Source: a virus
Length of the DNA stretch: 41,077 bases
Direction: 5' to 3' (one strand)
IMG/VR virus record: IMGVR_UViG_3300031576_000140
Coordinates: 1 to 41,077 of that record
The notes under the pieces are model-generated. The model was not told where the DNA came from. It ran no database searches and saw only the letters and a program-made list of their open reading frames with translations. Of the stretch, positions 15,752 to 41,077 are shown piece by piece. A program made the translations under genes and the position numbers. Position 1 is the first letter of the stretch. Every line of letters begins with the position of its first letter.

Positions 15752-16657
15752 ATGGAGAGAGTCGTTTTCGTGTGCGACAACTTCGCCGAAAAGTTTATCG
15801 GTGGAGCAGAGTTATCGGTTCAGGTTCATATTGATACGTGTCCCTTCCCGAAAGTCCTCGTCAAATCCTCCGAGTTCAATCCCAAAAAGTTCAATCCGAA
15901 GAAGGACTTCCTCGTTTTCGGCAACTTCGCGAACCTCAACCGTGAAGCGTTCGCGCCGGTCATGGAGAAGTTCAAGTACGTCATCGAGGAATGTGATTAC
16001 AAATATTGCCTTTACCGCTCGTCCCATAAGCACAAGGCGGTGACGGGGAAGGATTGCGATTGCCACGTCCAAGAGGTCGGGAAGTTGGTGTTCGAGTTCA
16101 TGCAACGGGCGGAGTGGGTGTTTTGGAAGTCCGAGCGTCAGCGGTACGAATACGTCCGGCTCTTTGGGGATCCGATCGACACTTGGCCGATCAAGTTCAT
16201 CGGGTCGATCATGGGCGGGGTGTTCTCCGACGCCGACCTTGACTTGCTCGTCCATTGGCGCGACGGCTTCCGCGCGGGAACGGCCTTCCGGTCGAACGAG
16301 TGGTTCGTCCTTTACTCCGGCTCTTGGATCAAGGGGTATTCCAACGCCGCCGCCTATTGTCGGGAAAACGGCCTCAAGATGAAGGCCGTCGGGAATATCC
16401 CTTACCGGGATTGCCTTGTCGCGATGGCCGGTTGCGAGGGGATCGTCTACCTTCCAAACGGCTTCGACGTGTCGTGCCGCATGATCACAGAGGCGAAGGT
16501 TCTCGGCCTCAAGATCATCACGAACGATAAGGTTCAGCACGTCACGGAGCCGTGGTTCAAGGGGACGGACGAGGAACGGTTGGCGTTCCTCCGGAGCCGC
16601 AACCCGGAGTTTTGGAAGATCGTTTCAAATCTTATTCTCGCGGTGAAGTTGTCTTGA
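15752..16657 (+). CDS. GT-B-type glycosyltransferase-like protein
   Basis: A 301-residue protein starting MERVVFVCDNFAEKFIGGAELS; the GGAE early motif is typical of GT-B (GT4-like) glycosyltransferases. Then SRVFW-like KSERQRYEYVRLFG, GSWIKGYSNAAAYC and a C-terminal nucleotide-sugar region (ACEGIVYLPNGFD-like, VSCRMITEAKVLGLKIITN) with the conserved E in MITEAK. It is shorter than most GT4 enzymes. First gene of the sugar island, 20 bases after the terminator. Donor and acceptor are unknown. Its TGA overlaps the TTG start of the next gene. Confidence 0.7.
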   Translation: MERVVFVCDNFAEKFIGGAELSVQVHIDTCPFPKVLVKSSEFNPKKFNPKKDFLVFGNFANLNREAFAPVMEKFKYVIEECDYKYCLYRSSHKHKAVTGKDCDCHVQEVGKLVFEFMQRAEWVFWKSERQRYEYVRLFGDPIDTWPIKFIGSIMGGVFSDADLDLLVHWRDGFRAGTAFRSNEWFVLYSGSWIKGYSNAAAYCRENGLKMKAVGNIPYRDCLVAMAGCEGIVYLPNGFDVSCRMITEAKVLGLKIITNDKVQHVTEPWFKGTDEERLAFLRSRNPEFWKIVSNLILAVKLS

Positions 16658-17184
16658 AGTTATTCCTCGCGCCCCACAACGACGACGAGGCATTGTACGG
16701 TTCGTTTACGATCATGCGCGAGAGGCCGTTGATTGTGGTCGTGACGGACGCGGCGCGCCACGCAAAGCGGGGTTTACCTATCGGCGTCCGGCGGGCGGAG
16801 TCCGTGGCCGCGGCGACGATCCTTCAAGCGGATGTGACCTTCCTCGATATCCCGGACGACGAGTTGACCATTGACCGGGCGGAGGACGCCTTCATTCGGC
16901 TCAAATACGTCGTCGAAACCGTCTACGCGCCCACGTGGTACGGCCACGGCAACGCCGATCACAACGCCGTCGGTCAGGCCGCGCGCCGTGTGTGGGGGGC
17001 GAAAGTGGTCGGATATTCGACTTACACGAAACAATGTCCGAAGGTCGAGGGGTTGCATGAGATCGTTCCCACGGAGTCCGAACTTCTACGGAAGCGCAAG
17101 GCGTTGGCGTGCTACACGTCGCAGTTGCAAATGAACAAGATCTACTTCGACCACGCTTGGAACGGGAGCGAATACCTTGACTAA
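16654..17184 (+). CDS. PIG-L (LmbE-like) deacetylase
   Basis: A 176-residue zinc-dependent N-deacetylase-like protein, which would remove acetyl groups from N-acetyl sugars. Seen: APHNDDEAL near the N-terminus (equivalent of the family's AHPDDE, with His8, Asp10, Asp11), VVVTDAARHA, RRAESVAAATIL and GHGNADHNAVGQA, the second metal-ligand motif. The only start at the beginning of the domain is TTG at 16654, overlapping the preceding stop (TTGA). In a cluster of glycosyltransferases it could deacetylate a transferred GlcNAc-type residue or a sugar nucleotide. Confidence 0.8.
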   Translation: MKLFLAPHNDDEALYGSFTIMRERPLIVVVTDAARHAKRGLPIGVRRAESVAAATILQADVTFLDIPDDELTIDRAEDAFIRLKYVVETVYAPTWYGHGNADHNAVGQAARRVWGAKVVGYSTYTKQCPKVEGLHEIVPTESELLRKRKALACYTSQLQMNKIYFDHAWNGSEYLD

Positions 17185-17824
17185 AAAACTCCTGATATGT
17201 CCCTTCTTCGGAGATCTCCCGGCCTTTTATCCTCAATGGCGCGAGAGTGTCCGGACGCTTGAGCGGTTCGGCTACGACGTCCTCGTCACTCAAGACCTCG
17301 ACGACTTCAATGCCCGGTGTCAGCGGGTTCTCGACTTCCCCTCGGTCATCGTGCCGGGAACGGGTAAGTTGTGGGACTACCGTTGCGCCTTCGGAGAGTT
17401 GTTCGCGCCGGAGTTAGAGGCGTACGACTTTTGGGGTCACACCGATTTTGACGTCGTGTTCGGGCGGGTTGACCGCTTCCTGACCGAAGAAATGCTCGAA
17501 GAAAAGGACTTCCTCGATATCTACTCCGACGAGAAGGACTACATCGGCGGGCATTGGACGATCTACCGCAACGCACCGCACGTCAATTCGTTCTTCCGGG
17601 AGTGCGAGGGGTGGGCGGCTTTTATGAAAGATCCGAAGCCGAACGGTTGGGTCGAGTTCGGGTTCTCGGTCGCCGCCAAGAAGAAGTTGAACGTCACCCT
17701 CTCTTGCAATCAGGCGACGCGGGACAACCGCGGCCTTGTCTTGGACGAGAACGGCTATCTCCGGCAGAACGGCAAAGAGGTCATGCTTGCACACTTCAAA
17801 GATCAAAAGCGGTGGCCTCTTTGA
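17177..17824 (+). CDS. DUF6625-like GT-A glycosyltransferase
   Basis: A 215-residue protein starting (TTG) MTKKLLICPFFGDLPAFYPQ. The core WGHTDFDVVFGRVDRFL carries a D-x-D motif for metal and sugar nucleotide. Then GHWTIYRNAP and a closing EVMLAHF.DQKRW. These features match what I know of the DUF6625 glycosyltransferase-like family. It overlaps the deacetylase gene by 8 bases and the next gene by four. It probably transfers a hexose to the glycan built by this island; substrate unknown. Confidence 0.65.
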   Translation: MTKKLLICPFFGDLPAFYPQWRESVRTLERFGYDVLVTQDLDDFNARCQRVLDFPSVIVPGTGKLWDYRCAFGELFAPELEAYDFWGHTDFDVVFGRVDRFLTEEMLEEKDFLDIYSDEKDYIGGHWTIYRNAPHVNSFFRECEGWAAFMKDPKPNGWVEFGFSVAAKKKLNVTLSCNQATRDNRGLVLDENGYLRQNGKEVMLAHFKDQKRWPL

Positions 17825-18519
17825 AGGTTATCCTCACCGGACACGAAGGATCGAAGCGGATCCTCGCGGCGTCGGCGTGCCTCGCTGACAAGTTTCTCCC
17901 TTCGGGCTTCCAAGTCCAATACCTGAACTTCGGGGAGTGTCCGGCCTTCCTTCACGGTTGCGACTACGTGTCCCTCGACGACACTCAAAAGGGCGGCGTC
18001 GGCGCGTGGTCGAAGTACCTCCGGCGGCACTTGAAGGTGATCCGGGACGAGTTCGTCGTGTTCGGCTTGGACGACTACCTTCTCGACGCGCCGATGGATC
18101 GGAAGGTCTTTGACACGTTGTTCCGGGCGGTCGTGGACGACGCCGAGGTCGTATGCGCCCGCCTTTGTCAGTCCGACTTTTACACCGACCGGGAGAAGCG
18201 GATCCGTCCGGACGGCCTGATTGAACTGACGCCGGAGGCCGCTTACTCGGTCACGACGCAATATTGCCTTTGGCGGCGCGACGCGCTCTTGGACGTCCTC
18301 GCTCAAGTCGAAGATCCGTGGCAATTCGAAATGACCGGGAGCGTGTATCTCAACTCGACCGGGTGGAAGGTCATCGGATCGCCGACACCGGCGTTGCGCT
18401 ATCCGGACGAGTCTTGCCTGTCGACCAAGTGGACGGGCGTGCGCGTGCGTGGGAACAACCGGGAGAACGTCGACTTCCTTTTGGGAATGGGACACTTACA
18501 ACAGGGGGACTTATGCTAG
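17821..18519 (+). CDS. Glycosyltransferase-like protein
   Basis: A 232-residue protein starting (TTG, coupled by TTGA) MKVILTGHEGSKRILAASAC. VVFGLDDYLLDAP supplies a D-D-Y variant of the DxD motif. VTTQYCLWRRDALLDVLAQ and DPWQFEMTGS are features of bacterial glycosyltransferases of capsule and lipopolysaccharide clusters. It has the GT-A layout. Its 3' end overlaps the dehydratase start by 7 bases. Donor and acceptor unknown. Confidence 0.65.
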   Translation: MKVILTGHEGSKRILAASACLADKFLPSGFQVQYLNFGECPAFLHGCDYVSLDDTQKGGVGAWSKYLRRHLKVIRDEFVVFGLDDYLLDAPMDRKVFDTLFRAVVDDAEVVCARLCQSDFYTDREKRIRPDGLIELTPEAAYSVTTQYCLWRRDALLDVLAQVEDPWQFEMTGSVYLNSTGWKVIGSPTPALRYPDESCLSTKWTGVRVRGNNRENVDFLLGMGHLQQGDLC

Positions 18520-18899
18520 AGAGAAACGGGCGGTACTTGATCACGGGCGGATCCGGGTTCTTGGGGCGCGAGATCGTCGCCACGCTGATCGCCTACGGCT
18601 ACAAGAACCTCGTCGTCATGGCGAGGAACGAAGGCAAATTGATCGAGTTGAAGAACGAACACCCGGAGATCGAGATCCTTCCGGGCGACGTGGCCGACCC
18701 GGTGGTGGTTCGCAAGGCGTGTCAGGGGGTCGACGGGATCCTTCACCTTGCCGCCTTCAAGCACGTCACGATGGCCGAAACGAACGCTTGGGAGTGCGTA
18801 CAGTCCAACGTCATCGGCACGAACAACCTCTTGGTCGAGTCAATCCACGTGAAGCCGAAGTTCTTCGTCTACATTTCAACGACAAGGCCGCGCAAGTGA
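18513..18899 (+). CDS. NAD(P)-dependent UDP-sugar 4,6-dehydratase (PseB/FlaA1/CapD-like), N-terminal part, frameshifted
   Basis: This frame gives LITGGSGFLGREIVATLI (Rossmann GxxGxxG), GDVADP, GILHLAAFKHVTMAE and QSNVIGTNNL, then stops at 18899 soon after FVYIST. The family's next motif, S-T-D-K-A, is split: ST is in this frame and DKAAQVNGVYGATKF in the -1 frame, starting at base 18881. Joining the two at 18881 restores a normal 288-residue enzyme. No slippery heptamer is present, so I favour a one-base deletion (a missing G in ACGGAC) or a sequencing error over programmed frameshifting. If intact, the enzyme would convert UDP-GlcNAc to a 4-keto-6-deoxy intermediate for the aminotransferase at 19363. 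Confidence 0.85.
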   Translation: MLERNGRYLITGGSGFLGREIVATLIAYGYKNLVVMARNEGKLIELKNEHPEIEILPGDVADPVVVRKACQGVDGILHLAAFKHVTMAETNAWECVQSNVIGTNNLLVESIHVKPKFFVYISTTRPRK

Positions 18900-19378
18900 A
18901 CGGCGTTTACGGCGCGACGAAGTTCATCGGGGAGAAGGCCGTCGTTGAGTTCTCGAAAATGAACCCGCTCACGAAGTACCTCACGGTGCGGTATGGCAAC
19001 GTTTTCCGTAGTACCGGGTCGTTTATCTTCAAGTGGGAGAAGGCGGTCGAAGAAGGCCGGGAGATCGTCCTGACTGATCCGGACGCAACGCGCTTCTTCT
19101 TCCCGGTGGAAGGTGCGGTCGATCTAGTCCTCGCCGCCGTGAGCCGCGGAGCCGAAGGACTTCTGATCCCTAAGATCAAGGCCGTCAGCATGGGGACGGT
19201 GGCGGAAGCGTTCGACGAGGTTCACGGCAAGGACGGGCGGACTATCGCTTGGAAAACGATCGGCCTTCAACCCGGCGAGAACAAGCACGAAACGATGGAC
19301 GGCGAACAATTCTCGAACGAGGTCGCTCAATACACGAAGGACGAGTTCAAGGAGATCTTCTTATGCCCTACCAAGTAG
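18896..19378 (+). CDS. UDP-sugar 4,6-dehydratase, C-terminal part (after the frameshift)
   Basis: The second half of the dehydratase. The frame is open from well before 18881; the only nearby start is GTG 18896. It contains the catalytic YGATK (Tyr/Lys pair of short-chain dehydrogenase-type enzymes), VRYGNVFRSTGSFIFKW and DATRFFFPVEGAVDLVLAA, then a C-terminal region with the substrate-binding PGENKHETM, as in PseB/FlaA1/CapD-type dehydratases. On its own this half lacks the NAD-binding N-terminus and cannot be active. It overlaps the aminotransferase start by 16 bases. Confidence 0.8.
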   Translation: MNGVYGATKFIGEKAVVEFSKMNPLTKYLTVRYGNVFRSTGSFIFKWEKAVEEGREIVLTDPDATRFFFPVEGAVDLVLAAVSRGAEGLLIPKIKAVSMGTVAEAFDEVHGKDGRTIAWKTIGLQPGENKHETMDGEQFSNEVAQYTKDEFKEIFLCPTK

Positions 19379-19998
19379 TTCGGAACTTCGAGTCGCGCGT
19401 AGCGGCGTACGCGGGCGCGCGGTACGGCGTCGCGGTGGAGAGTGGATCCGCGGCGATCTTCCTGTCCCTTATGTACGCAAAACAAAAGATGAAGGAGGCG
19501 GACGACAGCCGTTGGAACAACCTCGTCGTCGACGTGCCTTCGCGGACTTACCCCTCCGTCCCTTGCTCCGTCATTCACGCCGGTTGGAAGGTTCGTTTTA
19601 TTCAAGACCCGTGGGAGGGGATCTACCAACTGAACCCGCTCCTGATCCACGACGGCGCGCTTCGGTTCCGGCGAGGAATGTACGCGGGCGGGCTTCATTG
19701 TCTTTCGTTCCACGTCAAGAAACACCTCGCGATCGGCCGCGGCGGAATGATCCTCTTGAACGATCCGAAGGGTTATGAGTGGTTGAAGCGCGCGCGGTTC
19801 GACGGGCGGAAGGAGTGCGACTTGGATCAGGACGACCTCTCAATGCTCGGTTGGAATATGTATATGACTCCGGATCAGGCGGCGCGCGGCCTCATGGCGT
19901 TTTCGATCATCAACAACCGCAAGGAGGATCCCGCGGATCTCGACGCCGCCGCACAGGGATATCCCGACCTTTCGAAATACGAGGTCTACAAGCGATGA
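19363..19998 (+). CDS. DegT/DnrJ/EryC1/StrS-type aminotransferase, short form
   Basis: A 211-residue PLP enzyme of the sugar aminotransferase family (PseC/PglE-like), which would aminate a 4-keto sugar nucleotide. Seen: YGVAVESGSAAIFLSL (cofactor-phosphate region), Asp97 in LIHDGALRF (pyridine-nitrogen contact) and the PLP lysine Lys120 in LSFHVKKHLAIGRGGMI. Family members are usually 350-400 residues; this one ends after about the large domain, so the C-terminal small domain is missing or reduced. It follows the dehydratase and precedes an acetyltransferase, the classic order for diacetamido-trideoxy sugars. Confidence 0.75.
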   Translation: MPYQVVRNFESRVAAYAGARYGVAVESGSAAIFLSLMYAKQKMKEADDSRWNNLVVDVPSRTYPSVPCSVIHAGWKVRFIQDPWEGIYQLNPLLIHDGALRFRRGMYAGGLHCLSFHVKKHLAIGRGGMILLNDPKGYEWLKRARFDGRKECDLDQDDLSMLGWNMYMTPDQAARGLMAFSIINNRKEDPADLDAAAQGYPDLSKYEVYKR

Positions 19999-20477
19999 CG
20001 CTTTTCGCGAAGATGATCCGTCCGGCGCGCATGAAGGACGCCGACGCACTCTTGGATATCAAGAACGACTACGACGTCCGGCAGTTCTCGATTGTGACAA
20101 AAGACGAGATCCGGCGCGAGGATCACCTTCGTTGGCTTGAACGTGCGCTCAACAACCCGGACGTGCGGCTTTTCTGTATCTGTCACGGCGGCGGGTATGT
20201 GGTCGGCGACGTCCGGCTTGACGTTCTCGCGAAGGACTCAATCGAGTTGAGCGTCCGGATCCGGCCTTCCTTCCGGCGGATCGGGATCGGGATCGGGACG
20301 TTCGCTCTTGCCTTCGCGATTACCGAGGCGAAGAAGATCGCCGGGGACAAGGTGAAGTTGATGGCGAAGATCGTCGACGGCAACGCCGCGTCGATGGCGT
20401 TGTTCAAGTCGGTCGGGTTTCGCGTCGCCTACCACGACAACGTGGTTTCGTATTTGAGGTTCAACCTTGAAGAATAA
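19995..20477 (+). CDS. GNAT acetyltransferase (PseH-like)
   Basis: A 160-residue GNAT protein: MIRPARMKDADALLDIKND at the start, HLRWLERALNNPDVRLF, VGDVRLD, and the acetyl-CoA loop region IRPSFRRIGIGIGTFALAF followed by KIVDGNAASMALFKSVGF. The RRIGIGIG segment stands for the R/Q-x-x-G-x-G/A motif. In this context it would N-acetylate the 4-amino sugar made by the upstream aminotransferase, like PseH. The start overlaps the aminotransferase stop and the end overlaps the next gene by 11 bases. Confidence 0.82.
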   Translation: MTLFAKMIRPARMKDADALLDIKNDYDVRQFSIVTKDEIRREDHLRWLERALNNPDVRLFCICHGGGYVVGDVRLDVLAKDSIELSVRIRPSFRRIGIGIGTFALAFAITEAKKIAGDKVKLMAKIVDGNAASMALFKSVGFRVAYHDNVVSYLRFNLEE

Positions 20478-21060: not shown

Positions 21061-21190
21061 AAAATCTGAGTACGTGTGTCCGGAGTGCGGCGACACCGAG
21101 CGGGATAAGCCGGGGAAGGTGAAGTATTGTCAGTCCCACGGCAAAAAAGTCGTGATGATCGAGAAGAAGAAGGGGGTCATTACAAAATGA
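21050..21190 (+). CDS. Small zinc-ribbon protein inside the sugar island
   Basis: A 46-residue protein: MTDKKSEYVCPECGDTERDK, then KVKYCQSHGKKVVMIEK. CPEC plus C..H gives a likely zinc ribbon. The ATG follows a strong ATAGGGAGAGAG site. The gene overlaps the preceding stop by 11 bases and the next start by four (ATGA). Function unknown; small zinc ribbons are frequent in phage operons. Confidence 0.65.
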   Translation: MTDKKSEYVCPECGDTERDKPGKVKYCQSHGKKVVMIEKKKGVITK

Positions 21191-22350
21191 CGTCCTCGAA
21201 AATGCCGCTCTATTGGGCGACGCCCGAACACGATCTCGTCGCGAACGCGCTCGGCTACAACACCCACAACAAAAATATGAAGAAGCACTCGGAGCCGTAC
21301 TTCGACTTCACTCCGGACGCCAAGATCGCTTTGTCTATCGCGCCGGGGGACACGTACCGCCCGGTTCCTGGGAAGTTCAACGTCCTGTTTACAATGTGGG
21401 AACTCTTGGACGTTCCGCCTCCGTACATCGAAGCGTTCGCCAACGCGGACGCGATCATCGTGCCTTGCCGGTTTTGCAAGGATCTTTTCTCGAAATACTA
21501 CCCGCGCGAAAAAATATGGGTGTGCTTCGAGGGCGTGGATCCGGACGTCTACACCTTCAAGGAGCGGAAGTTCCCGAACATGAACGCGGGCGAGAAGTTC
21601 CGGTTCCTTTGGGTCGGCGCGCCGAACGAGCGCAAGGGTTATAGGTTTATGATGGAAATGGTCAAGGTGTTCGAAAAGGTTCCAACGGTCGAGATCTACA
21701 TCAAAACCACAATGCCGAAACTCGATTGGAAAACCACGCTCAAAAAAACTTGGGAGAACCGGAAGGAGATCTTCACCGACGGGCGGAAGTTGCGCGCGCT
21801 TGGGAATATGGTGAACCGGATCCCGACGCCGTACCACAACGAGCGCGTCCTGATCATGGGCAAGCACAAGAACGTGATCTTCGACACGCGAAAACTTCCG
21901 ACGGCGGATCTCGTTTCGCTCTATCACTCCGCTCACGGCTTCGTTCTTCCGCACTTGGGGGAAGGGTGGGGCTTGACTTTATGCGAGGCGATGGCGACGG
22001 GTTGTCCCTCGGTGTCGGTGGCCGAAACAGGGTGTAAAGATTTTTTCGACGAGTCCGTCGGTTATTGCTTAAAGACGGATATCATTGAACAAAATCTCAA
22101 ATCAAACTATCATTTAGAGAAGGCAAGGGCGCACGTGCCGCGCGCTCAAGACGTTTTGAACAAGATGACCGAGTTGATGATGAAGTACCCGGCCTCGTTG
22201 GACAAGGGGCGCGCGGCGTCGCGGCGGATCCGAGAGAGGTTCACTTGGGAGATCGCGGGACGGCGATTGCGTCAAATAATGGACGAGATCCAACAGGGGG
22301 CGGTTAAATGCAAAACTTCGAAGGGGTCACAGGCGACGATTTCAATCTGA
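21187..22350 (+). CDS. GT4-family glycosyltransferase
   Basis: A 387-residue GT-B enzyme. The N-terminal domain includes LFTMWELLDVPPPYIEAFANAD and IIVPCRFCKDLF; the C-terminal domain has FLWVGAPNERKGYRFMMEMV, then FVLPHLGEGWGLTLCEAMATGCPSVSV, which is the GT4 E-x7-E nucleotide-sugar site (GEGWGLTLCEA). Last and largest transferase of the island. It overlaps the next gene by 43 bases; the codons near the end (KCKTSKGSQATISI) look less like the rest, so the tail may be incidental. Confidence 0.88.
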   Translation: MTSSKMPLYWATPEHDLVANALGYNTHNKNMKKHSEPYFDFTPDAKIALSIAPGDTYRPVPGKFNVLFTMWELLDVPPPYIEAFANADAIIVPCRFCKDLFSKYYPREKIWVCFEGVDPDVYTFKERKFPNMNAGEKFRFLWVGAPNERKGYRFMMEMVKVFEKVPTVEIYIKTTMPKLDWKTTLKKTWENRKEIFTDGRKLRALGNMVNRIPTPYHNERVLIMGKHKNVIFDTRKLPTADLVSLYHSAHGFVLPHLGEGWGLTLCEAMATGCPSVSVAETGCKDFFDESVGYCLKTDIIEQNLKSNYHLEKARAHVPRAQDVLNKMTELMMKYPASLDKGRAASRRIRERFTWEIAGRRLRQIMDEIQQGAVKCKTSKGSQATISI

Positions 22351-22652
22351 ACCTCGCGTTCACGGACGCGAACGGCGCGGCGGTCAATATCTCCGGTTGG
22401 GGGACGATCAAGGCGACGTTCAAACTTCGCAAATCCTTGCTTGACGCGGCGACGGGCGTCGTTCAAAAAACCGCGACGGTCACTTCGGGCGCGGGCGGAA
22501 CTGCTACGGTGACACTCTCCAAAACCGACACGGCTTCGATGGTCGGATCCTACTACTACGACGTTCAGTATATCGACGGAAGCGGAAACATCAAAACGGC
22601 CATGTCCGGAGTGATCACCTTCACCCGCGACGTGACGCGGGCGACGTCTTAA
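22308..22652 (+). CDS. Baseplate/fibre-associated beta-sandwich protein (BppU-N-like)
   Basis: A 114-residue beta-rich protein: MQNFEGVTGDDFNLNLAFTDANGAAVNISGW, then TATVTLSKTDTASMVGSYYYDV. The GD.F.L...FTD..G..V..SGW pattern is common in the N-terminal domain of phage upper baseplate and fibre-connector proteins. ATG follows AGGGGGCGGTTAA. It begins inside the 3' end of the GT4 gene and its stop is coupled to the next start (TAATG). A virion role is inferred from the sequence and from the fibre genes downstream. Confidence 0.6.
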   Translation: MQNFEGVTGDDFNLNLAFTDANGAAVNISGWGTIKATFKLRKSLLDAATGVVQKTATVTSGAGGTATVTLSKTDTASMVGSYYYDVQYIDGSGNIKTAMSGVITFTRDVTRATS

Positions 22653-23101
22653 TGCCCGACGTTTCCGTCACCATAACGACGGGGACTCCGGTCACGGTCA
22701 GGGCTTCGGCTCCGACGACCGTCGAATTGGGGATCGAAAGCGCGCCGGACGTGACTATCATGCAAGCCGCGCCCGCCGCGGCGAACGTGGCGATCGGCAC
22801 GCGGGACGTGAACGCGACGGTTTCGAACCCGGACGCCGAGGCGGTACAGACTTACGCAATCACGAAGTATTGCGGGACGGCGGGGGCGGGGTATACGACC
22901 CTCACCGCCAATCAGTTATCCGGCGCGGCGGCGGTGGTGTTCGCAACGAACTTCAAGGCGAACACCCTGTCGCTTTTCAAGAACGGGATCTTGATGGAGA
23001 AGGACGTCGAATACTCCGAAGCGGTCGCCCGGACGGGGTTTACTCTTTTGGTCGCAGTTGACGCAACCGACAAGATCGAGGCGCGGTATGTTCAGATCTA
23101 A
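22652..23101 (+). CDS. Fibre-associated hypothetical protein
   Basis: A 149-residue protein. The first 60 residues are a low-complexity Ala/Val/Thr/Pro segment ([20 protein letters not shown]). The rest includes [19 protein letters not shown] and then [20 protein letters not shown], a pattern (NG..l..g.DY....g..i.L......D.i...Y) that recurs in phage tail-fibre and fibre-tip proteins. It overlaps the next fibre gene by 14 bases. Confidence 0.6.
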
Positions 23102-26100
23102 AATTAAACCCTCTAAAATGCGTTTAACCATTGTTGCGGGGCTTCTATCCGCACTTGTCGGCGTCCAAGACTTCGCTTTGGCCTATGATCCGAAGGCGTC
23201 ACAGATCAAGGTCACTTCCTCCGGCTTCAACGGCAACCTCGCCACGACCGACGACGATCTCCAAAAGGTTTCCCAAAAGGTTGACGATTTATCATTCCCG
23301 CCGGGGTACACGAACGCCGACGCGCGCGCGGCAATCTCGGAAACCGTCACCGGCCTCGATTACAACAACACGACCGGGGTGTTCTCGACGACCTCCGGGT
23401 ACGCGATCCCGACAACCGCCGCGGCCTCCGGGTGGGACGCCAAGATCGGCGGGTCGACCGGATCCACGGACAACGCGATCCTCCGCGCGGACGGGACGGG
23501 CGGGGCAACCCTCCAATCCTCCGGCGCGTCGATCTCCGACGCCGGTGGCATAACCGGCGACTCCCTGACCGCCTCGCACAACGGGGCGGGGACGAAGTTC
23601 TACGTCTACAACACGGCCTCCGGCGGGGCGTCTTGGGGCGGCGGCGCGGGGAACTCCGTGTCCTATATCGTTTACCCGTCCTCGAAGGTGTTCCTTCTCG
23701 CCCCGGTTTCGGATATCACCGGCGGCGCGAGTTCGTCCGATGGCCTGTTCGCGATCGACTCGTCGACGATCTATCTCGGCGCATACGCGACGCTGAACTC
23801 CGAGAAGGTCATCGCTTGGGGCAACCTCGCCCTCGGCGACAACGGGACGAACTCCGCGTCCCAACTCCGGTTCTATGAGCCGTCCGGATCCGGGTCGAAC
23901 TACACCGCGATCCGCGCGCAAGCGCAATCCGGCAACGTCACCCTCACCCTTCCCGCCGCGGACGCCGCCGGTGCGCTGACCAACAACGGATCCGGTGTGC
24001 TGACGTGGGGATCGTATCAGGCGACGGACGCCACGATCACCGCCCTCGCCGCCTACAACACGAACGGCCTTTTGACGCAGACCGCCGCGGACACCTTCAC
24101 CGGGCGCACGCTGACCGCCGCCGACACGACGCTCACGGTCACGAACGGGAACGGGGTGTCCGGCAACCCGACCGTCGGCCTCACCCTTTCGAACGCGAAC
24201 ACGTGGACGGGTCAACAGACCTTCAACACGTCCGCGCCGGTGTTCGGCACGATGACCGTCGGGTCGAACCTATTCGCCGGAACCTCCGGGCTTCTCACAC
24301 AGGACAACCAAAACAACTATTGGGACGACACCGCCAACTCGCTTCAAATTGGTTCGACCCTTAGTTCCGAACTCCTGACGAACGGCACGTTCACGGGAAG
24401 CGCGTCGTCTTGGACGGTTCCGAGCGGCTACGCTTACAGTTCGAATACAGTCGTTCACTCGTCCAATGGAACCGGATCATTAAGTCAATCGGTCGCGGTC
24501 TATGACGGCAACTTGGTTGAACTCACGTATACGATCTCCGCGCTGACCGTTGGAACGGTCACGCCCACAGTTTCCGGGACAGCGGGAACAACTCGGAGCG
24601 CGAACGGCACGTACACCGAGCGGATCCAATGCGGCAACGTGTCGAGTCCCACGCTCTCGTTCGCGCCCTCCAATACCGCGCGGTTCACGATCGACACGAT
24701 CTCGCTCAAGAAGCACACAGGCGGAAGTCTTTTTGTTGGAGGAACTTCGAGTTTTGGCGATCGTCAGATAATCGGCAAGACGAACAATACCTTCGCGTTC
24801 GGAGCGACAGATCACCAAGACTTCGTGAACCCGACGGGTTCTTATACAAATATCGGTTTTAAGTTCGGAGCAACGACGGCCTATAAGTCCGGGTTCATGG
24901 CTGACAGTTCGGGCAATATGTTCGCCGTCACGACGTCGGCGTTTTACTTTTACACGAACCCCAACTCCCCTTCCTCGTACGCCTACAACACGCCGTCCGG
25001 ATCCTACCAACAGGGCTACGTTCTCGCCTCCGGGTACGGCGCGTTCGGGACGAGCGTCACCGCCGGATCCACTTCCGCCGCAACTTCAACCTTCCAAAAC
25101 TACGGCACGACAGGATTTCAAGCAACCCGGATCACAACCTCCGGAACTTTGAACGGAAATTATACGGAAGTTCTCGGCGACGCCACGAACGCGGCGGCCT
25201 GTACGGGAACGGCTTCGACCGCTTGCTCGTCTTACAACAACTCGACGGATTGCGGACTTCGCGCAAGTCACGGCGGGGGGTGTTCTTGGTTCGCGGGGAA
25301 TAGTTGCTCAAACTTTAACGGCGAATACAACATGGGAAGTTGCGGCGGAACGAGCGGTTGTTCCGCCGATACGTCCAACTGCTCCGGCGGCGATCAAACA
25401 ACTTGCGAAGCGAATGACGACTCGTACGGCGGCTCTTGCTCATGGCAAAACGACTCTCCGACTTGCGTCGGACTTGACGAGGCGACTTGCGGCGCACACT
25501 CCGGCGACGGTTGTACCTCCAACACCTTCGATTGTTCGACGCTGAACGGCAACGAAAGCGGTTGCGGTGGTCACGCCGGTTGCTCCGTTTCGAGTGCAAG
25601 CACTTGCAGTTCGTACACGGACACCGCAACGTGCAACGGGAACTCGCCTTGCTCGGCGGTCGTGGACGGGGATTGCACAGCATTTTCAGACGGCGGCGGC
25701 GACGGGACAGCGTGCGCGACGAAGCCGGAGTGTTCCTACGACAGCGGATCCGGCGCGTGTACGGGCAATTACTTCACGTCTTGCGCGGGCGATAACTCGA
25801 CTTGCTCCGGTACTCCGTTCGACAACTGCTCCGGAAATTACACTTCCTATTCGTGTCACGGAACCTACTACACCGGGAATTGTTCCGGGACGTACGGCGC
25901 GAACTGCTCCGGGACGGCCTCTTGCACCGGGATCGGCAATTCAACCGATTGCGGGAACGAAACGGGTTGCTCATGGTCGAGCGTTCTCAACCTGACGCTC
26001 CCGCCGAGTCCTCCGGACGGTCGGGTTCTTTGGATCAAAAACGATACCTCGAACGGCAACGACGTCGTTCTCTACGCGAACACAAGTCAGGACTTTGAAA

Positions 26101-27224
26101 GCGGCGTGACGTCGATGAACTTGGCGAACTACAAAGACGCCACGAAGTTGATGTATTACGCCACGACCGCCGACTGTTCTTCGCTCTCGGAGTCGCCTTG
26201 CGGATCCACGACGGGTTGCACCCAAAATTACTACGATTGCGCGAACCACGGAGGCAATCAAGGAGAGTGCGAAGCCGACGCGCATTGTTCTTGGAACGGA
26301 TCCACTTGCGACACGAACGTTTATTTCACGACTTGCTCCGGCACTTATATCGTCAACCGCAGATGGCACGAAATGAGCGATCGGAAGTTGGGCGTCAGTT
26401 CGATCACGAACTCCGACGGGACGCTGACGATCTCTCCGACGACCGGCGCGGCGGTGGCCTCGATCAACTTGGGTCACGCGAACACGTGGTCGGCTCTCCA
26501 ATCGTTCACCGGAAAAATACAAATCCCCTCGGCTTCTCTCGGATCCGCGACATCGGGGTATCTTGAGAATAATTCCGGGACGCTCTATTGGAACGACGCA
26601 ACGCCGACGCGACAGACCGTCGCCATGCTCGGCGTGCAAAACACTTGGACGGCAACGCAGATCTTCAAACACTCGTCCGGATCGAGCGTGCCGCTCCGGA
26701 TCCAAGAAGCGACGACCTCTCCGAACGTGGATCTTCTCCGTATCGAGAAGGCGGGCGGCTCGACCCCGTATTGGGCTTCAATCGACAAGGCCGGATTGTT
26801 CGACTACTACGGCGGGATACAAACGGTCGACAACGGAGTGCCGTCGGAGTTGGCGGCGGTTGATCTCACCGCGCAGAGTGCGGCGAAGTCCGCGACGACG
26901 ATGTACGCCGTCCCGTCGACGGGGCTTGGCCTTTACCGGATCTCATGGGTCGCGACGATTACCACAGCGGCCACTACTTCGTCAATTCTCGGTGGGACGA
27001 ACGGGTTCCAGATAATATATACTGATGGAAACGACTCGGTTGTAAAGACTTCGATTGCCGGGAACACGGTGACGAGTGCGGCTAACACGACCGGGACGAG
27101 CATAAGCGGAACGCTCGTCGCCTACTGCAAGGCGTCGACGAACCTTCAATATAGTTTCGGCTACACAAGCGTTGGCGGGACAGCCATGCAATACAACCTT
27201 CATGTGAAGGTTGAGGCGTTATAA
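23088..27224 (+). CDS. Large exported tail-fibre-like protein with cysteine-rich insertions
   Basis: A 1378-residue protein. ATG 23088 has GAGG upstream; ATG 23118 is an alternative. The N-terminus ([20 protein letters not shown], then FALA|YDPK) reads as a signal peptide. Residues 30-690 are Thr/Ser/Gly-rich beta-repeats typical of fibres. Residues about 703-965 hold some 32 cysteines, and 1027-1088 another 8, in repeats such as C.....C.....GCSW. Between them [19 protein letters not shown] and the YANTSQDF region look like a normal fibre fold, so the cysteine blocks appear inserted in its loops. A thioredoxin-fold gene follows. Likely an adhesin or receptor-binding protein. Confidence 0.8.
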
Positions 27225-27243
27225 ACAAGGAGAGAGGGAGAAA

Positions 27244-27837
27244 ATGAAAAAGGTCATCATCGTTCTTGCGTTCGTTCTTTCGCTTACGACTTCGGCCTCG
27301 GCTTATACCGAGATCAAGCACGAAGCGTTCAAGCAATCCGTCGCGAAGGGATTGTCGGTCGTGGAGTTCTATTCGCCGAACTGTCCGCATTGTAAAAAGA
27401 TGGAAGGCGTCATCGCCAAGTTCGAAAAGGAGAATGATCACAAGAAGTTCTTCCGGATCAACATTCTCGACGAAGTGGTCGACAACAAGCCGTCCGAGTG
27501 GATCCAATCGACCGGCGTCACGTCTTGGCCGTACTTTATCCTTTACAAGGACGGCGTTGAGATCTACCGCTTTAAAGGCGAAATGGCCTACGAGAAGTTC
27601 GAACGCTTCGCCTCGCTCACCGATAAACCCACTCAAGACCAACTGATCGACTTTCGCACCGAAGAACTCAAAGCCGAGTACGATTTCCTCGGTCAGCGGG
27701 GTCAACAGATCTCGGAAGAACTGACCAAGATAAATACTCGTATGCAACAAATCCCCGCCGCCGTTGAAGAACTCTTGAAGATGAAGTCAACGGTTGCGCT
27801 CTCGGCGGATTGTCCGTCGGGGAATTGCGGATCTTAA
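27244..27837 (+). CDS. Exported thioredoxin-fold oxidoreductase with CPHC active site
   Basis: A 197-residue protein. Residues 1-20 are a signal peptide (MKKVIIVLAFVLSLTTSASA). The thioredoxin fold follows: VVEFYSPNCPHCKKMEGV with Cys47-Pro-His-Cys50, the same dipeptide as in E. coli DsbA, and the cis-proline loop VTSWP (Pro96). Residues 130-175 form a coiled coil (EELKAEYDFLGQRGQQISEE). The C-terminal tail has a second cysteine pair, Cys190-PSGN-Cys195. DsbA-type CPHC proteins introduce disulfides outside the cytoplasm. The gene is 19 bases after the fibre protein with about 40 cysteines, behind an AAGGAGAGAG site, so a dedicated folding partner is a strong inference. Confidence 0.88.
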   Translation: MKKVIIVLAFVLSLTTSASAYTEIKHEAFKQSVAKGLSVVEFYSPNCPHCKKMEGVIAKFEKENDHKKFFRINILDEVVDNKPSEWIQSTGVTSWPYFILYKDGVEIYRFKGEMAYEKFERFASLTDKPTQDQLIDFRTEELKAEYDFLGQRGQQISEELTKINTRMQQIPAAVEELLKMKSTVALSADCPSGNCGS

Positions 27838-38063: not shown

Positions 38064-38378
38064 ATGGACGCGATTATCATACCGAGCAAAATTATCATCA
38101 CGATCGGGGAAGATGGCAAAGGGGCGGGCGTTGTGCTTCAATATAAAGCGCGGGTCGATGGCGTGATTGACGCGGGCTTCCGGACGATGGACGTCCGAGC
38201 CGGTATCGACGACGGCCTCTTGGAGAAGATCATCGGAGGCGCGATCGAGCGCGTGACCGCCGGAGAAGGAACCAATTTAGTCAAGCGTCGTGAAACTGAA
38301 ACAGAAGTCAAGGAACGGATCACAAAAAACCTTGAAGCACAAAGCGAAAAAGCGGAGGCGGTGAAAAGTGAAAAATAA
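38064..38378 (+). CDS. Hypothetical protein after J
   Basis: A 104-residue protein: beta-rich start (AIIIPSKIIITIGEDGKGAG), then a charged coiled-coil end (KRRETETEVKERITKNLEAQ). ATG behind AAAGGGGGAGTC. Its 3' end overlaps the next fibre gene by 11 bases. Possibly a fibre-attachment or chaperone protein, by position only. Confidence 0.65.
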   Translation: MDAIIIPSKIIITIGEDGKGAGVVLQYKARVDGVIDAGFRTMDVRAGIDDGLLEKIIGGAIERVTAGEGTNLVKRRETETEVKERITKNLEAQSEKAEAVKSEK

Positions 38379-39309
38379 AATACTCGCGGTCATGGCGATC
38401 GCGCTTTTGGCGTTTCAAGCGCAAGGTTTTTGCGCGTGGGACAAAACCAAACCCACGGACTCGAACCTCTTGTCGACCGCGCCGTCTTTGATCCGCACGA
38501 ATTGGCAAGCGATCGAGGACGGAACCGACTCCGCCCTACTGATTACCAACGCGAAGGTGAGCGCGTCGGCGGCAATCGTCGACACGAAACTCGCGACGAT
38601 CTCAACCGCGGGCAAGGTGTCCGGCGCGGCGTTGACGCTTCTCGGCAACACGCCTTCCGGCGGCGGTCTTTTGCCGATGGCGAACGGCGGCTTGGCTTAC
38701 GGCCTGACCGATCCGAACGCTGACCGGATCCTGTTTTGGGACGACTCCGCCGGTCATTACGACTATCTGACCGCCGGATCCGGCCTCACGATCACCACAA
38801 CCACGATCACGCCCGACACCGCCTCAACCTCACAACCCGGTATCGCCGAAGCCGCCACGGTAGCGGAAACCGAAACCGGAACGGACGCCGCGCGGTACGT
38901 GACGCCGGACTCTTTGGCCGGATCAAACTTGGGCGAGAGGGTCGTTCAATGCGTGGCCTTCGACTTCACGTCGGACGTCACGACCGGGGACGGCGCGTAC
39001 TACTTCGTGATCCCCTCGACCTTGAACGGAATGGATCTCGTCGAGGTCAACGCCCGCGTGATCACCGCCGGGACGACCAACACGACAGACGTTCAGATCG
39101 CCAACGTGACCGACTCCGTGGACATGCTCTCGACCAAGATCACCATCGACTCGACCGAAGTCAGCACGTCGACCGCGGCGACTCCGGCGGTCATCGACAC
39201 GTCAAAAGATGACGTCGTGACAAACGACTTAATCCGGATCGACGTTGACGCGACGAGTACCACGAAGGCGAAGGGACTGATCGTCACGTTGATTTTTAGA
39301 CTTCCGTAA
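38368..39309 (+). CDS. Exported tail-fibre-like protein
   Basis: A 313-residue protein, GTG start. MKNKILAVMAIALLAFQAQG, followed by FCAWDKTKP, reads as a signal peptide. WDKTKPTDSNLLSTAPSLIR followed by NWQAIEDG is a frequent opening of phage fibre proteins. The middle is Thr/Ser/Ala repeats, then a C-terminal beta domain from about residue 190 (VVQCVAFDFTSDVTTGDGAY) with NTTDVQIANVTDSVDML. A fibre or fibre-tip role follows from the sequence and from its place between J and the LamG protein. Confidence 0.75.
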   Translation: MKNKILAVMAIALLAFQAQGFCAWDKTKPTDSNLLSTAPSLIRTNWQAIEDGTDSALLITNAKVSASAAIVDTKLATISTAGKVSGAALTLLGNTPSGGGLLPMANGGLAYGLTDPNADRILFWDDSAGHYDYLTAGSGLTITTTTITPDTASTSQPGIAEAATVAETETGTDAARYVTPDSLAGSNLGERVVQCVAFDFTSDVTTGDGAYYFVIPSTLNGMDLVEVNARVITAGTTNTTDVQIANVTDSVDMLSTKITIDSTEVSTSTAATPAVIDTSKDDVVTNDLIRIDVDATSTTKAKGLIVTLIFRLP

Positions 39310-39326: not shown

Positions 39327-41077
39327 ATGAAAAAATTACTTTCAGCGGTTGCGATCCTCGCGGTTCTCGCGGGGGTCGCGCCCGCGTGGGCGGTGGCGAT
39401 AGACTCGAACGACAAGTTGGTCGTTCAGAACAACAACACCGGATCCCCGACGACGTTCGTCGATACCTCGTCCGGCGCAAAGACGATCACGACCGTCGGC
39501 GGCGCGAAGCAGATCCCGTACAAGTTCAACAACACGGCGATCCTTGCAACCGCCTCTCCCTCCGGCTACGTTCAGATCCCGGACTCCGCAAATTGGGATA
39601 TCGGAACCGGCGACTTCGCGATGGACTTCTTCATCATGTTCCGGACGAAAGGGAATGTTCACCTTTTCAGTTTTGACGACGGCCCCCTGACTCTCGACTA
39701 CATCAACACCGGCCCCACTCTCCGGCTACAACTTGCCGGATCCGTCATCAAGAACGAGAGTTGGAACCCGACCGTGAACGTGTGGTATCACGTCGCGGTC
39801 ACGCGCGACGGCACAAACGTTCGTATGTTCATCGACGGGACGCAGATCGGAACGCCGACCACGAACTCCGGAAGTATCGCGACGTCGACCGGCGCATACG
39901 TCGGTTGCGCTTCGGGCGGTACGGCGTGCGCGGACGCTTGGTTCAAAGAGGTTCGCTTCTCGAACGTGTCGCGCTTTACCGCCGACTTCACCCCGACCAC
40001 GATGCAATACGCCTCCGACGCGAACACGCTCTTACTTCTTCACGGCGACACGGTTGCGAGTTCTCCGATCGCTCCCGCGATGTATTTTGACGGGACGGGA
40101 GATTGGTCGAACTTCCCGGACTCGAACGATTGGAACTTCGGAACCGGGTCGTTCACGGTCGAAGCGTGGCTTTACATGAAGTCGGCGGGGTACTCCGTGA
40201 TCAGTATTCACGCTTCGAACGACTCGTCTTATATGGCCTTGACCGCGAACAACGCCGGGACTTTCGGGTTCAGCGAGTCGGGAACGGGCGTTTCGTTTAC
40301 AGGCGGCACTCAAACCGGGAACCGTTGGTATCACGTGGCGGTCGTGCGGAATGTGAACGCATGGAACCTCTACATTGACGGTCAATCGGTCGCTTCAACG
40401 ACGAACGCCGGAACCGTTTCGAACTACACCGGCACGTGGGATATCGGCGGCTCAACCTACAACGGAAGTCTTTCGCTTCAAGGCGCGACGAATGGGTATA
40501 TCAAAATGCTCCGCGTCAGCAACATCGCCCGTTATACCGCCGCGTTCACTCCGCCGACCACGCCGTTCACGTCGGACGGGAATACGCTTCTTTTGGTGAA
40601 GGCCGAAGAAACGAACGGTTCGACTTCGATCACGGACTCGTCGTCATACGCTCGTTCGATCACTTTGGTCGGCGACACGAAGATCGCCTACCATGAGGAT
40701 TATCGTTCCGAAATATTCACCGACTCCGGCAACACGGGTCACAAACCCTATTCACCCTCCGGAGCGATCGGCAAGGTGGACTTCATCGTTCCGTTCGGAC
40801 TTGGATCCGGCTTTTACGACGGATCCGGAGATCGGCTTACGCTTGCGGACTCCGCCGATTGGGACTTTGGGACGGGCAACTTCACGATCGAAACTTGGGC
40901 GTGGTTCACCGCCAACAGTTCGGTCGTGTTGGTTGACGTCGGATCCGCGGTTGATGGAACCGCGAAGGGCGTGTGGTTGAGAAACACCGGAACGAACATC
41001 GAGTCGTATATCAACTCGAACGCCTACAACTTCGCTTTCGTTCCGATCCCGAACACTTGGTATCACCTTGCATTGAG
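39327..41077 (+). CDS. Triple LamG-domain exported protein (continues at 1-383)
   Basis: With the part at 1-383 this is 668 residues. MKKLLSAVAILAVLAGVAPA then WAVAID is a signal peptide. Three LamG/concanavalin-A-like domains follow, at about 55-230, 245-430 and 490-655. Each has a PDS-x-x-W (or ADSADW) strand with a following (D/N)(F/I)GTG(N/S/D)F motif, a WYH.A..R segment, and a final ..(V)SN(V/I)(A/S)R(Y/F)T...P segment. LamG domains bind sugars or proteins, so an adhesin or receptor-binding role is likely. ATG follows GAGGGGGAGAGA. Adjacent to the holin. Confidence 0.85.
   Translation, partial: MKKLLSAVAILAVLAGVAPAWAVAIDSNDKLVVQNNNTGSPTTFVDTSSGAKTITTVGGAKQIPYKFNNTAILATASPSGYVQIPDSANWDIGTGDFAMDFFIMFRTKGNVHLFSFDDGPLTLDYINTGPTLRLQLAGSVIKNESWNPTVNVWYHVAVTRDGTNVRMFIDGTQIGTPTTNSGSIATSTGAYVGCASGGTACADAWFKEVRFSNVSRFTADFTPTTMQYASDANTLLLLHGDTVASSPIAPAMYFDGTGDWSNFPDSNDWNFGTGSFTVEAWLYMKSAGYSVISIHASNDSSYMALTANNAGTFGFSESGTGVSFTGGTQTGNRWYHVAVVRNVNAWNLYIDGQSVASTTNAGTVSNYTGTWDIGGSTYNGSLSLQGATNGYIKMLRVSNIARYTAAFTPPTTPFTSDGNTLLLVKAEETNGSTSITDSSSYARSITLVGDTKIAYHEDYRSEIFTDSGNTGHKPYSPSGAIGKVDFIVPFGLGSGFYDGSGDRLTLADSADWDFGTGNFTIETWAWFTANSSVVLVDVGSAVDGTAKGVWLRNTGTNIESYINSNAYNFAFVPIPNTWYHLAL
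40951..41077. repeat. Terminal direct repeat, copy 2 (circular assembly overlap)
   Basis: Identical to bases 1-127; see that entry. These bases lie inside the third LamG domain and should be counted once. Confidence 0.93.

Follow-up and report, generated by a model that had tools for sequence, protein, structure and literature searches.

Organisation of the fibre-oxidoreductase locus

The DNA analysed here (the window) is a stretch of 41,077 nucleotides that makes up the viral record IMGVR_UViG_3300031576_000140 of IMG/VR. On its plus strand, two adjacent genes encode an exported cysteine-rich fibre protein, the proposed client, and an exported thioredoxin-fold protein, the proposed catalyst. 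The fibre open reading frame (ORF) runs from 23088 to 27224 and encodes 1378 residues, and its C-terminal domain is homologous to that of 28 other fibre loci. The protein starts with a general secretory (Sec) signal peptide (23088 to 23183), and a homologous exported N-terminus is found in a related phage (L013, 9897 to 10841). Signal peptides were called throughout by inspection and hydropathy. An earlier note, made from the sequence alone, had described this fibre as carrying a signal peptide and about 40 cysteines in two blocks. The protein indeed has 42 cysteines, of which 32 lie at residues 705-961 and eight at residues 1030-1083, with single ones at 515 and 1347. The 257 residues of the first block would be expected to hold about 2.6 cysteines at a content of 1% (P about 1e-24), and the other long ORFs of the window contain 0-3.3% cysteine. 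Since the domain aligns with 20 homologous fibre domains at 39-57% identity, and the columns without variation are mostly cysteines, the reading frame is real.

Both cysteine blocks are insertions that interrupt a beta-barrel marked by LTLP...DRDYW...WY. Cysteine counts and alignment place block 1 at 25200 to 25970, inserted in the carrier barrel, and block 2 at 26175 to 26336. The barrel segment between them (25971 to 26174) ends in LMYYATT, and the barrel closes after block 2. In Foldseek, this carrier weakly matched phage tailspike, baseplate and capsid-spike domains over about 60 residues, with E values of 0.002 and above. The model of the fibre domain has a mean predicted local distance difference test (pLDDT) score of 82 and a predicted template-modelling (TM) score of 0.45; it shows block 1 as a series of repeated helix/strand modules and leaves their arrangement relative to one another uncertain. 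For the cysteine-rich insert, no solved relative was found by sequence and no Pfam family scored above its cut-off, metal-site families included. Its closest structural match is a fragment from an uncultured phage, A0A6J5M4N0.

Between the fibre stop codon, which ends at 27224, and the next ATG at 27244 lies a gap of exactly 19 bases that holds a purine-rich ribosome-binding stretch, AGGAGAGAGGGAG (27228 to 27240). The downstream gene (27244 to 27837) encodes 197 residues. The protein belongs to the thioredoxin superfamily (PF00085, 50.3 bits against a cut-off of 23.5, E=2.5e-13), and its model (pLDDT 84.6) matched thioredoxins in Foldseek with a TM score of about 0.8 by target length. It begins with a signal peptide, MKKVIIVLAFVLSLTTSASA (27244 to 27303), which is missing from all homologues. 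Both cysteines of the active site CPHC (27382 to 27393) are invariant across the partner alignments, as is the proline of SWPYF, aligned at the cis-proline position. In the model, the thioredoxin head sits on a single 57-residue C-terminal helix (27634 to 27804), related to an RGEL...IN arm of many partners, and is followed by a flexible tail with a second cysteine pair, CPSGNC (27811 to 27828). The spacing, secretion and two cysteine pairs given by the earlier note are thus all borne out. The partner at L168 (8081-8557) likewise ends in a cysteine pair of its own, MQCDSCQ.

The reading of CPHC as a DsbA active site holds for the motif but not for the protein. The window partner shares CPHC and a Sec signal peptide with DsbA, but it scored 27.1 bits against the DsbA cut-off of 279, over region 1-57 only, and its model lacks the DsbA helical domain, so that DsbA identity was rejected. 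The top NCBIfam match was pdi_dom (34.9 bits, yet below the cut-off of 107.2), and TXNDC5 and PDI domains are among the closest PDB entries by sequence. As modelled, the window partner combines a CPHC active site with a plain thioredoxin/PDI-a fold, which a long C-terminal helix extends.

Distribution and linkage of the pair in other phages

Further members of the family were sought among IMG/VR viral contigs with a degenerate nucleotide pattern encoding the CxGTYxxxCxGT repeat and then with a profile scan, which yielded 28 contigs that share the cysteine-rich insertion domain of the window fibre. One of these (L170) ends at the fibre, and linkage was counted over the other 27 loci. A gene for a thioredoxin- or glutaredoxin-fold protein with CxxC lies downstream of the fibre in 26 of them: within 20 bases in 21 cases, at 244 bases in three (at L175, one of the three, a small gene separates the two), and at 551 and 1168 bases in two. 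When the search was reversed, starting from an alignment of the commonest partner type, all 22 loci adjoined a cysteine-rich fibre; two of them are truncated where the contig stops, but the C-terminus of the fibre can still be read. The contigs of both scans together number 30, from 25 metagenomes. As a control, large ORFs in other phage loci were screened by regular expression, with 2/162 positive, both in frames that look non-coding; this control is crude, as the expression also misses six of the partners in their extracted form. The co-occurrence in metagenomic phages that the earlier note had proposed as a check is thus found in both directions, and its central idea of a dedicated oxidoreductase-client pair is supported. 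At the remaining locus (L171, 1734-3781), the cysteine-rich fibre begins with a signal peptide and lacks a thioredoxin partner beside it. A small exported protein with six cysteines follows, and the 25-kb record contains no PF00085 match.

The partners are diverse. Their active sites read CPYC, CPHC, CPKC, CPNC, CGNC or CSFC, and every aligned partner retains the catalytic cysteine pair. At L168 and L172, the partner has been exchanged for another type of the thioredoxin superfamily beside a similar fibre: the fibre domains of L152 and L168 are 62% identical and their partners only 20%, and the partner of L172 is a true glutaredoxin with a short C-terminal arm (PF00462, 34.6 bits, cut-off 22.9). 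Since partners differ even beside fibre domains this similar, a thiol oxidoreductase seems to be needed at this place rather than carried along. The backbones also differ: one group has a phrog_12082 portal, another has a Mu-like baseplate wedge, the window is a siphophage, and others have different neighbours. Signal peptides are present on both proteins of the window pair and on neither protein of the 26 other pairs. The two genes probably form a mobile module of client and catalyst that serves a disulfide-stapled fibre domain.

Other searches delimited this distribution. Neither the fibre nor the partner of the L116/L152 type had a match among 50,697 phage records, no match came from a cultured phage, and the window proteins had none in phages by tblastn, nor did a scan with the single fibre protein give one. 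The strict pattern FY[ST]xxCPHCK occurred in no viral contig, and an alignment of all partner types together was too divergent for scanning. One candidate homologue of the window (L002) was discarded, as its sole match was a chance VEELLKMK coil. In Omnitrophota, fibre matches covered only generic fibre or barrel parts, and thioredoxin matches were ordinary thioredoxins; both were rejected. The Acinetobacter phage AJO2 has a thioredoxin annotation, and its paper does not mention cysteine. One phage with a cysteine-rich fibre also encodes an exported 13-cysteine protein near lysis-type genes (L128, 8161-8979).

Related phages, gene neighbourhood and host

In portal-based scans, the nearest relatives of the window are 38-49% identical. 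No thioredoxin was found in 28 portal relatives, many of which are fragments, and no comparable cysteine-rich fibre was seen in their examined loci. Several of them have fibre-like proteins with signal peptides in the same segment, after a conserved glycosyltransferase gene (L004 16341-19230, L010 17632-18897, and L013 as given above). In the window, two small genes, phrog_1084 and a small fibre-neighbour protein (22308 to 23101, plus strand), precede the exported fibre; the order is the same in L013, where the fibre N-terminus is also similar. Exported fibres thus look old in this lineage, and the cysteine-rich domain and the enzyme look like additions. The cultured relatives of the L152 backbone (Mx8, BUCT555, ppBjS10J-1 and ctMlz233), with the gene order portal, small genes, capsid, also lack a thioredoxin (0/4).

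The record of the window has an exact terminal repeat of 127 bases, so the genome is probably complete. It combines tail genes of the lambda-J type with head genes of the HK97 type. Two more fibre-like/LamG proteins, encoded at 38368-39309 (VKNKILAVMAIALLAFQAQGFCA) and at 39327-41077 continuing into 1-383 (MKKLLSAVAILAVLAGVAPAWA), start with apparent signal peptides, and exported virion-like proteins therefore seem to be a general trait of this phage. Between the capsid and fibre genes lies a sugar-modification cassette (16552-20477) with a PIG-L deacetylase, PseB-like, PseC-like and PseH-like proteins and glycosyltransferases. The PseB-like frame matches its own profile only from residue 144 on, which suggests that the listed frame may be broken or frame-shifted. 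In six related phages, a further glycosyltransferase (21127-22350) is conserved at 44-54% identity on the downstream side of the capsid gene. In relatives, radical S-adenosylmethionine-like proteins are encoded between the capsid gene and the glycosyltransferase gene (L010 15489-16292, L011 11302-12159, L013 6683-7474, L014 14184-15014 and L015 7611-8474), with N-terminal motifs such as CNHCNYC, CTNWCPYC and CSFKCPYC.

The window phage has no certain host. Its terminase was matched best, among genomes, by a contig in an Omnitrophota metagenome-assembled genome (G029), at 42% identity. Among 237 Omnitrophota genomes, possibly incomplete, DsbB was not found and VKOR was present in 13. A phage-borne oxidase could matter in such hosts, a point weakened by the incompleteness of the genomes and by the VKOR that G029 itself has.

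Proposed mechanism and alternative explanations

In the mechanism proposed here, the client would be a fibre beta-barrel with two cysteine-studded loop insertions, bearing 24-32 and usually eight cysteines. The insertions may fold as small helix-strand modules stapled by disulfides, and probably form the receptor-facing surface. The catalyst, translated just after the fibre, would form or reshuffle the fibre disulfides through its CxxC, and its long C-terminal helix may oligomerise it or dock it on the fibre. In most phages, fibre and partner would be active inside the cytoplasm or when the cell lyses. In the window phage, both would pass through Sec, with folding in the periplasm, where CPHC and the CPSGNC tail would fit an oxidising role. 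In its full form, this account describes a phage-supplied thiol-disulfide catalyst for a receptor-facing fibre domain, widespread and mostly cytoplasmic, as a counterpart among bacterial viruses to the disulfide pathway of poxviruses, with client and enzyme moved together to the periplasm in the window lineage; we put it forward tentatively, as a possibility. The claim of the earlier note that the pair works outside the cytoplasm agrees with the window, where both proteins have a signal peptide, but cannot be extended to the module as a whole.

The cysteines themselves bear on this chemistry. Single barrel cysteines aside, their counts rise in steps of four (24, 28 or 32 in block 1; eight, or four at L172, in block 2). 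The fibres contain no CC, CxC or CxxC, and cysteines within blocks are spaced 5-16 apart. Counts in fours, the missing fibre CxxC and the invariant cysteine pair of the partners point to disulfide chemistry. Multiples of four would also suit a fibre that binds zinc or iron-sulphur clusters, its redox neighbour being unrelated. However, the lack of CxxC and CxC, the spacing and the missing metal-site family speak against such sites, and the linkage to the partner would be left unexplained. With invariant columns that are mostly cysteines, disulfides are favoured over metal sites, and we regard metal binding as very improbable. An equally slight chance is given to hitch-hiking, in which the oxidoreductase would be a host-takeover gene placed here by chance or shared ancestry. 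A large share of the pairs does fall in one related cluster, and fibre and partner distances correlate (Mantel r 0.87) as expected from common descent alone; the different backbones, the non-orthologous replacement at the same spot, the 22/22 reverse linkage and the absence of the enzyme in relatives without the domain argue against it.

Assembly chaperones are common directly after fibre genes, and the partner could be such a chaperone, or a virion subunit anchored through the C-terminal helix, its redox activity being incidental. Its position and the 57-residue helix, with a related arm in many partners, agree with this. However, the CxxC cysteines occur without exception in the aligned partners and also in the glutaredoxin replacement, where the arm is short, and a structural role appears improbable. 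The main rival to disulfide formation or isomerisation is a protecting reductase, which would stop the fibre cysteines from oxidising and tangling before release, disulfides then arising via air or host oxidants after lysis. Such an enzyme would also be a thiol partner dedicated to the fibre, but its chemistry would run the other way. The 26 pairs without signal peptides would reside in the cytoplasm, normally a reducing compartment, CPYC is a motif of the glutaredoxin type, the L172 partner is a glutaredoxin, and the virion disulfides of phage Milano were reported without an enzyme partner (PMC10811340, PMC10491603). Against this, the window pair is exported to where the usual electron source of a reductase would be lacking, and the exported L171 fibre has no partner, which looks as though an oxidising compartment had taken its place. 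A protecting reductase is considered unlikely, though less so than the other alternatives. That the role is oxidative we infer; oxidases, isomerases and protecting reductases cannot be told apart by sequence. Most likely, the partner forms or isomerises the disulfides of the fibre.

Several points weigh against the proposed catalysis of fibre disulfides. The match of signal peptides within pairs is tested from the positive side by the window pair only. The L171 fibre, with no recognisable partner in its 25-kb record, indicates that a partner is not always needed; on one reading, export into an oxidising compartment may replace the enzyme. A cut at 97% domain identity leaves 20 non-redundant pairs in about seven clusters, so that many pairs are close relatives. 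Moreover, the usual redox state of the cytoplasm keeps thioredoxins reduced, and oxidation in the 26 pairs would need an unknown electron acceptor or timing at lysis.

Thiol oxidoreductases encoded beside their own client are known from BdbA/BdbB with sublancin in the SPbeta prophage, DsbL/DsbI with arylsulfate sulfotransferase, and TrbB of F-type conjugation, the last a weak model match of the window partner. In these systems, as proposed for the window, a thioredoxin-fold enzyme adjoins one disulfide-containing client, sometimes on mobile DNA; unlike them, the phage client is a fibre that contains about 40 cysteines, and the pairing turns up on several phage backbones, in most cases lacking signal peptides. 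The periodic cysteines are shared with Paramecium and Tetrahymena surface antigens (PF01508), but those are ciliate surface proteins; L151 scored 12.3 bits, below the cut-off of 21.2 (E=0.24), and the window had no match. The cytoplasmic disulfide pathway of poxviruses (E10R, A2.5L and G4L, covered in part by PMC1318495) likewise is virus-borne thioredoxin-superfamily chemistry for virion proteins, with E10R, an Erv1-like FAD oxidase, feeding the thioredoxin-fold protein, whereas the present pairs consist of a single enzyme beside a single client in bacterial viruses. The Agrobacterium phage Milano, with its disulfide-locked virion, also has many disulfides in structural proteins, receptor-binding proteins included, but its bonds are scattered and inter-subunit, and neither paper mentions thioredoxin or glutaredoxin (PMC10811340, PMC10491603). 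No description of a phage fibre-oxidoreductase module was found in the open-access literature.

The fibre and its enzyme look like a folding pair that is passed around among phages. Phage fibres are generally treated as folding in the reducing cytoplasm with few disulfides. As a two-gene system, the pair makes the role of the enzyme accessible by mutating two cysteines, and it may offer a compact client-catalyst tool for making disulfide-rich proteins. If the proposed role is true, phages would arrange thiol chemistry for a part of their virion, and an insertion domain rich in cysteines, travelling together with an oxidoreductase of its own, would offer a new route to stable, variable fibre surfaces.

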